DNA of 21,209 nt from a virus, in the IMG/VR virus record IMGVR_UViG_3300042300_000076, positions 1 through 21,209 of that record. One strand, given 5' to 3'. Below the pieces are notes generated by a model, which had not been told where the DNA came from, did no database searches, and was given only the letters and a program-made list of their open reading frames with translations. Position 1 is the first letter of the stretch. Each line of letters opens with the position of its first letter. The translations under genes were made by a program, and so were the position numbers. This document shows, piece after piece, positions 7,277 to 12,014 of the stretch.

Positions 7277-7291
7277 CTATCAATATGCTAG
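7277..7291. promoter_or_regulatory. Operator-like palindrome, copy O2
   Basis: CTATCAATATGCTAG differs at a single base from the reverse complement of the site at 1793-1807 and has one imperfect arm. It ends 11 bases before the ATG of the HTH gene at 7303, in the leader of the rightward transcript, where binding could autoregulate that gene. Confidence 0.55.
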
Positions 7292-7302: not shown

Positions 7303-7521
7303 ATGAACACACAAATCACACCAGATGAGCGCCGACGACTGGCAGAAAAAGTTGGCATGAACGAACAGTACATCTACCAGTGCCTCACCGGCAGGCGTGA
7401 GATGTCGGCAGCAGAAGCTGTGCGCATTGAGCAAGAGTCTTTGGGGGCGGTGACTCGCAAGATGGTGTGCCAGGGCACCTGGCAGTCGATCTGGCCTGAA
7501 CTTGTTGAGGCACAAGCATGA
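7303..7521 (+). CDS. YdaS/Cro-like HTH transcriptional regulator (72 aa)
   Basis: The start at 7303 gives MNTQITPDERRRLAEKVGMN; a frame start at 7285 is less likely because it lies in the operator. Residues about 10-46 form a small lambda-repressor/Cro type helix-turn-helix domain: RRLAEKVGMNEQYIYQCLTG then RREMSAAEAVRIEQES. YdaS-like proteins, known from Rac-type prophages, have this length and the pattern (LA..(V/I)G....Y.....GRR.(M/I)....A..IE..S). The remaining 25 residues are a short tail. It is the first rightward gene, faces the leftward promoter, and its stop overlaps the primase ATG (ATGA). Likely role: Cro-like repressor or switch protein binding the CTAGC-N5-GCTAG sites. No CI-type partner with a peptidase domain is seen in the window. 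Confidence 0.8.
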   Translation: MNTQITPDERRRLAEKVGMNEQYIYQCLTGRREMSAAEAVRIEQESLGAVTRKMVCQGTWQSIWPELVEAQA

Positions 7522-9569
7522 CCTCCCTTTCAACCATCTTCCCTAACGGCTTTGCAGCAGCGACAGAAAGCCAAGACCTGATCAACCCAGAGGAATCGTT
7601 TCGCCGTCACTGTGAGGCGGCTGGCCTGCTGATCAAGGACCAGATCGTGGCAGACGGTGAGATACACCGTGTGGCTCATGTCTCGAGCAAAAAAGGTGCA
7701 TTGGATGGCTGGTACATCTTGCACACTAGCGGCAAGGTGCCCGTGGGCATTGCTGGGTGCTGGAAGGAGCCAGTGTTCGAAGCCAAGTGGGTGGCTGAAA
7801 CGTCAAGGCAGATGACGTTCACAGAAAGGTTTGAGCATGACAGGTGGATCACTGAGGTCAAGGCCAAGAAAGAAGCTGCAAGGCTGGTGAGTCAGGCCGT
7901 GGCAGCAGAGCGTGCGGAAGATGAAGTCGGCACCTATGCGGATGCCAGCGCAGATCATCCTTACCTTGTGCGCAAGCACATCAAGGCTCACGGCGTAAAG
8001 ATCGACCGTGCTGGGCGGCTGGTGGTGCCGGTGAGTAGCCAGCAAGGAGAAATACTGTCTTACCAGACCATTGATGCTGATGGCAACAAAAGATTTCTTA
8101 AAGGCGGCAAGATCGAAGGCGGGTTTTACGAGCTACGCGGGAACCGGAAGGTGGTGTTTGTTGGCGAGGGGTTTGCTACCTGCGCGTCCATCCATGAGGC
8201 GACGGGCTACACCGTGATGGTGGCCTTTGATTGCGGCAACTTGGCCAAGGTTGCCAAAGCAGCCAAGGAGATGTTCCCAGGCTCTAAGATTGTGATCGGC
8301 GCAGACAACGACCAATTTACAGAGGGCAACCCTGGCGTGGCGAAGGGCAGGGCAGCGGCAGCGCTGGTGTTTGGCGAGGTTGTCTACCCACAATTCGGGA
8401 ATGCTGATATGGTTGACAACAAACCAACAGACTTTAACGACCTGCACTGCCTGCAAGGTCTGGATGCCGTGAAAGAGCAGATTGAGCGCGTAGCAGGCCC
8501 AGTGCGGGACAAACTGGGTTTTGAGTTCACCAGAGCAGACAACCTTGAGTTGCACCAGATCAAGTGGGTGGTCGATGACTACATCGAGGCAGACTCCCTC
8601 GCGCAAGTCTTCGGTGATCCAGGTGGCGGCAAGTCCTTTGTCAGCATTGATCTGGCCTGCTGCGTGGCCACCGGCAAAGACTGGCACGGCCACCAAGTCC
8701 AGCAAGGTGCAGTCTTCTACATCGCAGGCGAGGGCCACAACGGCTTGGCTAGGCGTTTCAAAGCATGGCAACTGGGCAATGGCCAGACCTTAGACGGTGC
8801 GCCGTTATACAAAAGCCACCGCGCAGCGCAGTTGTACGACACAACAGAGGCGGCAATCGTTGCCGAGAGCATTAAGGAACTGTCAGCCCAGTCCGGCTGC
8901 ATCCCCAGCATGATCATCATCGACACCCTGGCCAGAAACCACGGAGGGGATGAAAATTCTACTCAGGACATGAATGCGTTCATCCAGCATTTGGACACCT
9001 ACCTGCGCCAGCCGTGGAAGTGCTGCGTTCTGGTGGTGCACCACTCAGGCGTTGCCGACAAAGACCGCAGTAGGGGTAGCACGGCGCTCAAAGGGGCATT
9101 GGATGCTGAGTACCGCTGCCAGTTGGACTCGGGCACTAAGACCATCGCCTTTGAGTCCAAAAAGATGAAGGACGCGGAAATGCCAGCGCCCAAGAACTTC
9201 CAGATCACCCAAGTTGATCTGCCCATCCTCGACAAGCACGGCAACCCAGTGCGAGGTGCCTACCTCACCGCGGTCGACCTGAACGGGCTTATAGACAGCA
9301 TCCAAAAGCGCACCGTGCTCTCAGGCAACCAACGCCTGGCACTGAACTGCCTTGTCGCCATCGAGGTCAAGAGAGCCAGTGACGGGGTGCAAGGCTTTGC
9401 CGCGCAGGTGGACTACGACGAGTGGCGGGACTCGGCCAAAGAACACGGCATGAACGCCAGACGGTTTGCAGAATCAATCAAGGCATTGGTCAAAAAAGAG
9501 ATGGTGCTGGACAGGTCGGGGATGTACCGCAGTGTGCCAAAACCAATAGAAGAAGGTGTGGCGACATGA
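7518..9569 (+). CDS. Primase-helicase: Toprim plus RepA-like hexameric helicase domain (683 aa)
   Basis: A two-domain replication protein. The N-terminal part contains a Toprim domain: VFVGEG with catalytic Glu217, then VIGADND with Asp263/Asp265. After a linker, an AAA_25/RepA-type RecA fold begins with Walker A GDPGGGKS (366-373) and Walker B MIIIDTLA (465-472), followed by VLVVHHSG (a motif typical of RepA/RadA-like helicases). The C-terminal 100 residues look like a winged-helix region (ALNCLVAIE ... MNARRFAESIKALVKKEMVL). A D5/CHC2 zinc finger is not visible at the N-terminus. It should prime and unwind at the phage origin. ATG overlaps the regulator stop; the final TGA overlaps the next ATG, giving a coupled rightward operon. 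Confidence 0.93.
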   Translation: MTSLSTIFPNGFAAATESQDLINPEESFRRHCEAAGLLIKDQIVADGEIHRVAHVSSKKGALDGWYILHTSGKVPVGIAGCWKEPVFEAKWVAETSRQMTFTERFEHDRWITEVKAKKEAARLVSQAVAAERAEDEVGTYADASADHPYLVRKHIKAHGVKIDRAGRLVVPVSSQQGEILSYQTIDADGNKRFLKGGKIEGGFYELRGNRKVVFVGEGFATCASIHEATGYTVMVAFDCGNLAKVAKAAKEMFPGSKIVIGADNDQFTEGNPGVAKGRAAAALVFGEVVYPQFGNADMVDNKPTDFNDLHCLQGLDAVKEQIERVAGPVRDKLGFEFTRADNLELHQIKWVVDDYIEADSLAQVFGDPGGGKSFVSIDLACCVATGKDWHGHQVQQGAVFYIAGEGHNGLARRFKAWQLGNGQTLDGAPLYKSHRAAQLYDTTEAAIVAESIKELSAQSGCIPSMIIIDTLARNHGGDENSTQDMNAFIQHLDTYLRQPWKCCVLVVHHSGVADKDRSRGSTALKGALDAEYRCQLDSGTKTIAFESKKMKDAEMPAPKNFQITQVDLPILDKHGNPVRGAYLTAVDLNGLIDSIQKRTVLSGNQRLALNCLVAIEVKRASDGVQGFAAQVDYDEWRDSAKEHGMNARRFAESIKALVKKEMVLDRSGMYRSVPKPIEEGVAT

Positions 9570-10438
9570 GCGATCCCTTCAAAATTACAGAGCCAACTTG
9601 CATTAGCTTCAGCGGCGGGCGCACAAGTGCCTACATGCTCTGGCGGGTTCTTCAAAGCAATGGCGGGTTGCCGGATGAAGCTGCGGTTTGTTTTGCCAAC
9701 ACAGGCCGTGAGGAGGAAGCCACTCTTTGCTTTGTGCGTGATTGCGGTGAGCATTGGGGTGTGCCCATCAACTGGGTGGAGTTTGTAGATGCTGATCCAG
9801 CGTTCAAGGTTGTCAGCTTTGAGACAGCCAGCCGTGACGGTGAGCCATTTGAGGCCATCATACGCAAGCGCAATTACCTGCCCAACCCAGTCACAAGGTT
9901 CTGCACTAGCGAACTGAAGATCAGAACCATGCACAAATGGCTGCGGGCCAACTGGCAAGCGTTAGGCTGGGATGCCAAAGACTTGGAATGGAACCAGATG
10001 ATTGGCATTCGCGCCGACGAGCAGCGCCGTGTATCCAAGATTCGTGCCCGTGGCCATAGCACTGAGACAACTAAGGAAACCATGCTTATGCCACTGGCTG
10101 ACGCTGGAGTGACCGTGCAGCAAGTCGGTGACTTTTGGAACAGCCAGCCGTTCAATCTGGGTTTGGCCACATACAACGGGCGCACCCTCGCGGGAAACTG
10201 TGACCTGTGCTTCCTCAAGCCAGCCAACCAAATCTTTACACTTATTTCGGAAAAACCAGAGCGTGCAGTGTGGTGGGCAAAAATGGAGGCTTTGGCTTTG
10301 GCTTTGGCGTCCAAGCCAAGCGGTGCCGTGTTTAGGTCTGACCGGCCTGGTTACGCTTCAATGCTCAAGTTCAGCCAAGACCAACGTGACATGTTCGATC
10401 CCAATGAGGAAGCCATTTCGTGCTTCTGTGGGGATTGA
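9566..10438 (+). CDS. PAPS-reductase-like PP-loop protein (290 aa)
   Basis: The start at 9566 (MSDPFKITEPTCISFSGGRT) overlaps the primase stop by ATGA; earlier in-frame starts lie inside the primase. The PP-loop S-G-G-R-T-S (16-21) binds ATP or PAPS, as in the adenine nucleotide alpha-hydrolase superfamily (CysH, DndC, TtcA). Later Cys motifs are RFCTSELKIRTM (about 112-123), GNCDLCFLK (C-x2-C, about 211-219) and a C-terminal CFCGD. The C-x2-C pair plus the CTxxLK cysteine could hold an Fe-S cluster, as in thiolation enzymes. Phage homologues are usually annotated phosphoadenosine phosphosulfate reductase, but a metabolic CysH role is unlikely without partner genes; nucleotide or DNA/tRNA modification is possible. 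It sits between the primase and the GTACCGA array. Confidence 0.82.
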   Translation: MSDPFKITEPTCISFSGGRTSAYMLWRVLQSNGGLPDEAAVCFANTGREEEATLCFVRDCGEHWGVPINWVEFVDADPAFKVVSFETASRDGEPFEAIIRKRNYLPNPVTRFCTSELKIRTMHKWLRANWQALGWDAKDLEWNQMIGIRADEQRRVSKIRARGHSTETTKETMLMPLADAGVTVQQVGDFWNSQPFNLGLATYNGRTLAGNCDLCFLKPANQIFTLISEKPERAVWWAKMEALALALASKPSGAVFRSDRPGYASMLKFSQDQRDMFDPNEEAISCFCGD

Positions 10439-10442
10439 TGAT

Positions 10443-10629
10443 GTACCGAAGCGTACCGAAATGTACCGAAATCGGTACGGACGGTGGGGGGGTCTGATGT
10501 ACCGACGAATGTACCGATTTGTACCGAAACGTACCGATGTGTACCGAAGGAACCCACCTCTGGTGTACCGAAACGTACCGAACGTGTCTATAGACACGTT
10601 CAGGTTCGGTACATAAAGGGTTTCGGTAC
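10443..10629. repeat. GTACCGA iteron-like array (10 direct, 3 inverted copies)
   Basis: Copies of GTACCGA on the plus strand start at 10443, 10453, 10463, 10499, 10511, 10521, 10531, 10541, 10565 and 10575; inverted TCGGTAC copies start at 10472, 10606 and 10623. Most neighbours are 10 bp apart (unit about GTACCGAAAY), one helical turn, so bound proteins would line up on one face. The unit length is not a multiple of three and stops interrupt the frames, so it is not a protein repeat. It starts five bases after the PP-loop gene stop, within a gene-free stretch of 269 bases (10439-10707). Best guesses are a replication origin bound by a phage initiator or a regulatory or partition site. Confidence 0.85.
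10580..10601. repeat. 22-bp perfect palindrome in the GTACCGA array
   Basis: The left arm GAACGTGTCTA is followed directly by its reverse complement TAGACACGTTC, with no interruption. It shares its first three bases with the last direct GTACCGAA copy and is followed four bases on by an inverted copy (10605-10612). Both strands could extrude a cruciform; as RNA it would be a hairpin with no U-tract, so not a standard terminator. A dimeric protein site at an origin is the simplest reading. Confidence 0.8.
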
Positions 10630-10707
10630 ATGGTGTGCGTTCGGGGGGCGTTTTGGGGCTGGTTCAGGGATGGCTTGGGATGGTGATGATTGGATGGGGG
10701 GTGTGGC

Positions 10708-11046
10708 GTGATTGATGTGATGATTGAGATGAAAATTGTGTCGGTGGCTAACTTGAGGCTGCATTGGGCTGTGAAGGCCAAGCTGGTGAAGGGGCAGCGC
10801 AAAAAGGCGTACAGCGCGTTGGCGAGTGTTGCGGCACCACCTGTGCCACCTTGCAGTGTTGTGCTTACTAGGGTGGCTCCAAGGCGCTTGGATGGGGATA
10901 ATCTGCAGTCGGGGTTTAAGGCGGTCAGAGATGGGGTGGCTGACTGGCTTGGCGTGGACGATGGCGACAAGCGGATTGATTGGCAGTACGGGCAAAGGTC
11001 GGGTGGGGTAAACGTGTACCAAGTCGAAATCGAGGTGATAGCATGA
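10708..11046 (+). CDS. RusA-like Holliday junction resolvase (112 aa)
   Basis: I take the GTG at 10708 (after a GGGGGG run six bases upstream); ATG at 10720 (MIEMKIVSVANLRLHW) is an alternative and a TTG at 10690 is less likely. The protein has a basic N-terminal half (VKAKLVKGQRKKAY) and the core PRRLDGDNLQSGFKAVRDGV followed by ADWLGVDDGDKRIDW. The spaced acidic residues (D-G-D-N ... K ... D ... D-D) match the RusA metal-binding site, D.DN..K...D......DD. RusA dimers cut four-way junctions, resolving recombination or replication intermediates before packaging. The length is close to RusA (about 120 aa). It is followed by a candidate ATGA-coupled 29-aa frame and the small terminase. Confidence 0.78.
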   Translation: MIDVMIEMKIVSVANLRLHWAVKAKLVKGQRKKAYSALASVAAPPVPPCSVVLTRVAPRRLDGDNLQSGFKAVRDGVADWLGVDDGDKRIDWQYGQRSGGVNVYQVEIEVIA

Positions 11047-11807: not shown

Positions 11808-11896
11808 TTATCCACAGAAAAACTAACGCTTGCGGCCTACATTTGCAGTTGTCCACAGGCAACTGTGCATAACTAGCGCAAAACCCTTGTGGACAA
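11808..11896. promoter_or_regulatory. Cluster of four DnaA-box-like 9-mers
   Basis: TTATCCACA (11808-11816, the perfect DnaA box), TTGTCCACA (11849-11857), TTATGCACA on the minus strand (11872-11864), and TTGTCCACA on the minus strand (11896-11888). One matches the strong R1-type box, one fits the TTWTNCACA consensus, and two differ from it at position 3. All lie within 89 bp. A hairpin-forming CAGTTG/CAACTG pair (11846-11865) encloses box two. Four boxes this close are far above chance and imply a DnaA-dependent step, such as host DnaA-aided origin opening. Confidence 0.7.
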
Positions 11897-11979
11897 CCCG
11901 CCCTGGCCCTCCGCTGGCCGGATCGAGGGGGGGGGTGGGGGCCCGCGGCGAGGGGTCACGGTTACGGTGCCCCCGCGAA

Positions 11980-12014
11980 CATTTTGGAATATTTTTTTAA
12001 AAAAATGATTTAAC
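11980..12014. other. AT-rich stretch, candidate unwinding element
   Basis: A strongly AT-rich run follows the DnaA cluster and the GC block. It contains the 16-bp palindrome ATTTTTTTAAAAAAAT (11991-12006). T7A7 tracts are easily melted or bent. A position about 85-100 bp from the last DnaA box suits a duplex unwinding element, but it also directly precedes the 599-aa gene, where it could act as an upstream promoter element. Confidence 0.45.

Follow-up and report, generated by a model that had tools for sequence, protein, structure and literature searches.

The repeat array described here is probably the initiator-binding part of a phage replication origin, with the phage's own primase-helicase as its initiator, and the repeated unit is very probably read by the C-terminus of that protein. 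An origin with an initiator-binding array had been proposed in the initial annotation of this DNA, and the comparative evidence presented below strongly supports it. To our knowledge, no replication origin is known for most environmental phages. The signature reported here would give a readable origin mark for a large family of aquatic phages and name the likely initiator.

Repeat array of the window

The window, i.e., the whole stretch of 21,209 bases analysed (IMG/VR record IMGVR_UViG_3300042300_000076), contained 13 exact matches of GTACCGA, ten on the + strand and three on the - strand, all at 10443-10629 (187 bp) and none elsewhere, while the expectation was 0.94 per window with a maximum of 3 (100 dinucleotide shuffles of the whole window). 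The start-to-start distances between direct units were 10, 10, 36, 12, 10, 10, 10, 24 and 10. Exact matching and these distances reproduced the earlier counts, namely ten direct and three inverted units in 187 bp, with seven of the nine direct gaps at 10-12 bp and six at exactly 10, and the 10-bp period was also recovered by Tandem Repeats Finder. Clustered direct repeats of one unit beside a putative initiator gene are an arrangement of plasmid-type iteron origins. The inverted units were not randomly placed, since one forms a palindrome and the other two complete a nested stem that encloses a hairpin. The parts of the array are as follows.

10443-10469, + strand: three direct GTACCGA units at 10-bp pitch (exact matches; block also in relatives)
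10463-10478, unstranded: palindrome GTACCGA-AA-TCGGTAC, made of the third direct and the first inverted unit (10472-10478), from sequence
10499-10547, + strand: five direct units (10499, 10511, 10521, 10531, 10541), exact matches
10565-10581, + strand: direct unit pair 5' of the hairpin (exact matches; constant element of the clades)
10581-10600, unstranded: hairpin AACGTGTC-TATA-GACACGTT (pairing kept and stem sequence varying among relatives, loop T-N-N-A)
10606-10629, - strand: inverted unit pair 3' of the hairpin (10606-10612, 10623-10629; exact matches; constant element of the clades)

The direct pair, the hairpin and the inverted pair make up a conserved terminal module, and the last 73 bases of the array (10560-10632), folded as single-stranded DNA, gave one nested stem (z = -6.7). 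Promoter and terminator scans of the array gave no match above shuffles, and Rfam and tRNA scans gave no match. No blastn match was found for the region or the array among INPHARED phages, or for the array among PLSDB plasmids. When GTDB genomes were scanned for a three-unit pattern, 14 scattered matches were obtained, many of them in Streptomyces; three were clusters of at least five units, none with a primase-helicase.

One layout with many units in related phages

An IMG/VR pattern scan found the window-type array, with near-fixed unit positions, in more than 50 viral contigs. A wider set was obtained by querying with the primase-helicase rather than the repeat, and the array layout was present at the 3' end of a homologous primase-helicase gene in over 100 IMG/VR contigs as well as in several phage isolates. 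Wherever the contig reached that far, the array lay between the primase-helicase and rusA/terS. The initial annotation had asked whether homologous phages keep the array beside the same genes, and indeed it adjoins the primase-helicase. A 6-mer repeated at least seven times was present at the end of the gene in 122 of 179 distinct loci versus 4 of 179 in a control stretch, a segment inside the primase-helicase gene; in part of the loci lacking it, the array had been displaced by an inserted gene.

All fetched relatives with 66-88% primase-helicase identity had an array, and their units were GTACCGA, GCACCGA, AACCGAA, CATCCGA, GTCCGGA, ATCCGGA and GTCCGG. The clade of L296, about 31% identical to the window, used GGTAAC, SGGAAC, GGGTCA, AGGGGG, CGTATC, CGGACC, CGTACC, GGTACT and GTACAC, and isolate phages at 31-33% identity used GGTTCA (Alteromonas phage XX1924), GGTACA (Idiomarinaceae phage 1N2-2) and GGGACA (Salicola phage CGphi29). 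At least 12 different units occur in arrays sharing the layout, which remained constant: a run of direct units, in many cases with a single inverted one, followed by a direct pair, the hairpin and an inverted pair. The inverted unit of the palindrome kept its position in most relatives. The helical phasing of 10 bp emphasized earlier did not hold as a general rule, because the pitch was 7 bp for GGTAAC and 5-8 bp for CGGACC (7, 8 and 5 bp all occur); a 10-bp pitch is frequent among relatives, not universal. In the L296 clade, the hairpin module is also flanked by a further conserved motif common to different units, with GGGCAAAA-n-CG on the 5' side of the unit pair and a TTCGATGCGG-like sequence downstream.

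Among the observations that go against the origin model is an array-less group. This sub-clade (L228, L234, L248, L249, L255, L264, L283 and L289) had no repeat array in the fetched DNA, and no DnaA boxes were present near the gene among the members checked. Its primases are 64% identical to that of L296, with a quite different C-terminus.

Primase-helicase and its predicted C-terminal winged helix

The gene proposed to encode the initiator and its predicted DNA-reading part are located as follows.

7518-9569, + strand: primase-helicase, proposed initiator, with a Toprim primase (about 213-314) and an RSF1010-RepA-like AAA_25 helicase (about 339-513); Pfam, PHROGs, PDB 1g8y
9270-9566, + strand: predicted C-terminal winged helix (residues about 585-683) with predicted recognition helix 647-659 (9456-9494); AlphaFold models, winged-helix matches, covariation

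The Toprim domain was recognized by Pfam (Toprim_3, E 6.6e-10), and RSF1010 RepA is a relative of the helicase domain (PDB 1g8y, E 3.5e-8). No SF3 helicase model reached the cut-off in this protein, the helicase matches being AAA_25/RepA-like only. The last 100 residues or so are far more variable than the remainder of the protein. AlphaFold models of moderate confidence (pLDDT about 70) predicted for this part three helices and a two-stranded wing (H-H-H-E-E), with the third helix starting from residue 647. Winged-helix matches in the VIA list (ORC, MCM and Cdc6 winged helices) reached Z about 9, and Foldseek gave weak winged-helix matches only; the P4 alpha domain was not among the VIA list matches, which is no evidence against it. 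Given the winged helix, the primase-helicase would serve as an initiator made of one protein. Where relatives lack the PP-loop gene that separates the two in the window, the primase-helicase ORF enters the array, whose first two units encode the last residues, M-Y-R-T-V-P-K. We also observed that the array start in such relatives, e.g. L143 and L146, codes for the predicted wing strand of the primase, so that protein and site sequence are tied together.

Covariation of the unit and the C-terminus

Among 50 representatives of the window clade, unit similarity followed C-terminal identity with a Spearman rho of 0.86, the C-terminus being taken as residues 585-668, which lie outside the array-encoded part. 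The rho with the unit was 0.31 for the rest of the primase-helicase, 0.38 for rusA, 0.29 for the HTH protein and 0.26 for terS, and given the C-terminus the partial correlations were 0.02, 0.00, -0.02 and 0.09, respectively; for Sak4 the partial correlation was 0.25. The partial Mantel p was 0.001 in both clades. In leave-one-out prediction, the nearest neighbour by C-terminus gave the right unit in 61 of 63 and 64 of 64 cases, and the nearest by N-terminus in 41 of 63 and 39 of 64. With neighbours capped below 80% identity both were lower (38/63 and 44/64 by C-terminus, 17/63 and 11/64 by N-terminus). At least 12 unit changes were needed on the N-terminal tree versus 6 on the C-terminal tree. 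L172 (GTACCGA) and L178 (CATCCGA) are 99% identical as far as the C-terminus and 39% beyond it.

The varying residues sit at and just before the start of the predicted recognition helix, where NA/NS goes with GTACCGA and DY with GCACCGA. The helix starts and units of the window clade pair as HGLN[AS]RRF (mostly) with GTACCGA, HGLDYRRF with GCACCGA, HGIKSNRF with AACCGAA and HGVKNNRF (mostly) with CATCCGA. The pairs of the L296 clade are GRK(P/A)RT-ENDLS-like with AGGGGG (14 phages), G(N/F)AERT-RNM with GGGTCA (14), A(K/R)QY with GGTAAC (17), A(K/D)(V/T)Y with SGGAAC (15), ADKK..KPGYP with CGGACC (4) and ADKK..KPGSA with CGTACC (2). In this clade, Q occurs with GGTAAC and V/T with SGGAAC. Few C-terminal positions separate L231/L340 from L259, one of them being Q versus V in the predicted recognition helix, and their units are different. 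An unplanned check came from L247 and L309, which have the AKQY helix and lacked a full array in the zone searched; GGTAAC arrays were then located at +996 and +302, so that the unit predicted from the C-terminus was found 0.3-1 kb further on.

Taken together, these patterns make it very probable that the C-terminus of the primase-helicase reads the unit, and they specify which part of this protein, already listed as a candidate binder in the initial annotation, would do so. Because the array and the C-terminus are physically adjacent, cassette transfer contributes to the covariation, but rusA, equally near on the other side of the array, shows no such covariation, which argues against linkage alone being enough. 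The HTH protein at 7285, another binder suggested earlier, was rejected: it carried no information on the unit once the primase C-terminus was controlled for.

The same data bear on the idea that the array is a partition site, a packaging site, a mobile repeat or a decoy for a host protein. Short repeated sites with helical spacing do occur in such elements, and this counts for the idea. On the other side, no ParA or ParB match was found among the window proteins searched, the array was present as a single copy in six near-complete relatives rather than scattered in the genome and was not found as a free repeat in phage or plasmid collections, and the unit follows the primase rather than the terminase. 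We therefore regard these roles as most improbable, and the partition and decoy functions suggested initially gained no support.

Units and their matching reading domains are available here in dozens of pairs, among them the near-identical proteins with different units (L231/L340 versus L259), through which the specificity of an origin-binding winged helix becomes directly testable. The pairs of array and C-terminus form a natural table of protein residues against the DNA letters that they would read.

Hairpin of the terminal module

In 130 of 146 arrays, facing units enclosed a candidate stem of 5 bp or more, some of these being pairings other than the terminal hairpin. Among 34 distinct examples with a T-N-N-A loop (mostly TATA or TTTA), stem positions 3-5 used all four Watson-Crick pairs; the percentage paired is biased here, because the stems had been selected for pairing. 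The terminal hairpins in a set anchored on the flanking units had no G-T pair and almost no mismatch. A stem sequence that changes freely with pairing kept argues for structure rather than base reading.

An alternative is that the array acts in transcription control, recognized by a regulator of the phage (for instance the HTH protein at 7285) or working as an RNA element in the transcript into the late genes. The array does lie between early and late genes, and its RNA is also foldable (z -5). But the similarity of the HTH protein was uninformative on the unit after the control for the primase C-terminus, the units were missing from the HTH/Sak4 divergent region of the window by exact matching, no terminator-like site was found in the array, and the anchored stems change by Watson-Crick pairs only, without G-U steps. 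A role in transcription control thus appears highly improbable.

DnaA boxes and the AT-rich tract

In the L296 clade, 100 perfect TTATCCACA boxes were found in the 600-bp array zone versus 35 elsewhere, a 28-fold higher density, and the boxes directly flank the array. The window clade has no DnaA boxes at the array itself; a box cluster and an AT-rich tract lie about 1.2 kb from it, a distance that counts against the origin model.

11808-11896, unstranded: DnaA-box cluster with TTATCCACA at 11808(+), TTGTCCACA at 11849(+), TTATGCACA at 11864(-) and TTGTCCACA at 11888(-); spacing (0, +41, -56, -80) conserved in the clade
11978-12012, unstranded: AT-rich tract (31 of 35 A/T), candidate DNA-unwinding element; comparable tract at about +165-170 in many relatives

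The cluster has a near-constant spacing in this clade (0, +41, -56, -66, -80) and is located in the gap separating terS from the gene that follows, roughly 1.0-1.4 kb past the primase stop, or more where a gene is inserted. Many relatives have a nearly all-A/T tract of 35 bp about 165-170 bp on from the cluster. DnaA boxes of whole phage records were largely concentrated at this one place. Of the DnaA boxes and AT-rich tract of iteron origins, the boxes are found flanking the array in the L296 clade and 1.2 kb away in the window clade, there with an AT-rich tract in many members, and the placement of the boxes suggests a role of host DnaA.

It may be argued that the true origin is this DnaA-box and AT-rich region (11808-12012), and that the array is an operator or loading site to which the primase-helicase binds for autoregulation or for loading of the helicase, instead of the start point. 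The conserved boxes of near-fixed spacing and AT-rich tract between terS and the next gene speak for this, and so does the lack of an AT-rich tract in the array itself. Yet the DnaA boxes stand immediately beside the array in the L296 clade, no promoter-like match was found in the array, and its position at the end rather than the start of the initiator gene makes it ill-suited to an operator. We consider this alternative unlikely. The GC-skew check proposed in the initial annotation was uninformative, as ten near-complete genomes showed no consistent turn at the array.

Proposed origin and comparison with known systems

For an origin at the array we infer binding, opening and loading, a role of the hairpin and the start of replication there, in the following way. 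The predicted winged helix would read the 6-7 bp unit, and the direct repeats would take up many initiator copies. Two complexes would be set against each other by the direct and inverted pairs on either side of the hairpin. Extrusion of this hairpin, or its exposure as the DNA unwinds, would offer single-stranded DNA as a starting place to the RepA-type helicase ring and the Toprim primase. Host DnaA would aid the opening from boxes flanking the array in one clade, or from the cluster and AT-rich tract 1.2 kb off in the window clade.

Several known systems share parts of this arrangement. P4 alpha unites in a single protein a primase of Toprim type, a helicase and an origin-repeat-binding winged helix (PMC4234260), which is the likeness to the Toprim primase, helicase and predicted winged helix found here. 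The present protein has an RSF1010-RepA/AAA_25 helicase instead of an SF3 helicase and a C-terminal winged helix by prediction only, and its array adjoins the initiator gene, contains a hairpin and other units, and has DnaA boxes nearby. SaPI Rep recognizes, through its C-terminal domain, iterons directly downstream of its own gene, and SCCmec Cch2 is alike in its helicase C-terminal domain and short iterons directly 3' of the gene (PMC7581432); unlike the present phages, these are staphylococcal satellites or islands, with other helicase families and archaeo-eukaryotic or other primases. The RSF1010 (IncQ) oriV shares the RepA-homologous hexameric helicase (1g8y) and iterons plus hairpins, and its RepA exposes hairpins that are recognized by its primase (PMC4234260). 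RSF1010 uses three proteins, RepA, RepB' and RepC, with another primase, whereas here one protein would suffice, with a Toprim primase fused to the helicase and a unit of 6-7 bp, and no RepC-like protein was found among the window proteins scanned. The pRN1 plasmid depends on a stem-loop, free in its sequence, that lies 3' of the primase-helicase gene (PMC4234260), alike in variable sequence and constant structure, in its place just 3' of the gene and in the C-terminal winged helix; pRN1 lacks iterons and has an SF3 helicase with an archaeo-eukaryotic primase, instead of Toprim plus AAA_25.

Judged from its sequence features, the present element thus combines features of P4 alpha, SaPI Rep, RSF1010 and pRN1, and on the best reading the proposed initiator would function as P4 alpha or SaPI Rep do, while being composed differently as a protein. 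No earlier description of such an array and initiator was found in the open-access literature. The PLE satellites of Vibrio cholerae offer a further likeness, because their origin and the origin-binding domain of RepA were swapped together, plausibly in escape from the phage nuclease Odn (PMC7145576, PMC8263062); the PLE initiator differs in being of the RepA_N type, without helicase or primase, and in using long semi-palindromic iterons. We conjecture that conflict at origins, as for PLE and ICP1 (PMC8263062), drives the joint change here, and such conflict would explain why unit and reader change so rapidly together. On balance we lean, by a small degree, towards a wider proposal: a single-protein initiator (Toprim primase, RSF1010-RepA-type helicase and winged helix) would act on an iteron-hairpin origin aided by host DnaA, with joint exchange or mutation of unit and reading domain at a high rate, by which the phages perhaps evade satellites or nucleases directed at origins. 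This would be a large and so far undescribed class of phage replicon, with a natural protein-DNA recognition code switched by one or few residues.

Neighbouring genes

Two genes adjoin the array in the window.

9566-10438, + strand: PP-loop gene (PAPS-reductase-like), inserted between the primase 3' end and the array; PHROG PAPS reductase, missing here in most relatives
10690-11046, + strand: ORF called a resolvase in the initial annotation, here rusA, used as linkage control

The PP-loop gene had been put forward as a candidate partner of the array; it is an inserted neighbour outside the mechanism and has no visible link to the array. Its insertion at the array start was also seen in the relatives L008, L062, L064, L092, L097 and L111, and the junction of the primase 3' end and the array seems to be a recurrent landing place. 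The rusA ORF had no match in Pfam or PHROGs. In L247 (5020-6010, record G017), the stretch of about 1 kb between the primase stop and the displaced GGTAAC array has a translation that by eye resembles a bacterial acyltransferase. Elsewhere in the window, the protein encoded at 1129-1758 matches a PHROG family that carries the annotation ferredoxin (E 2e-74), which is unusual cargo for a phage.
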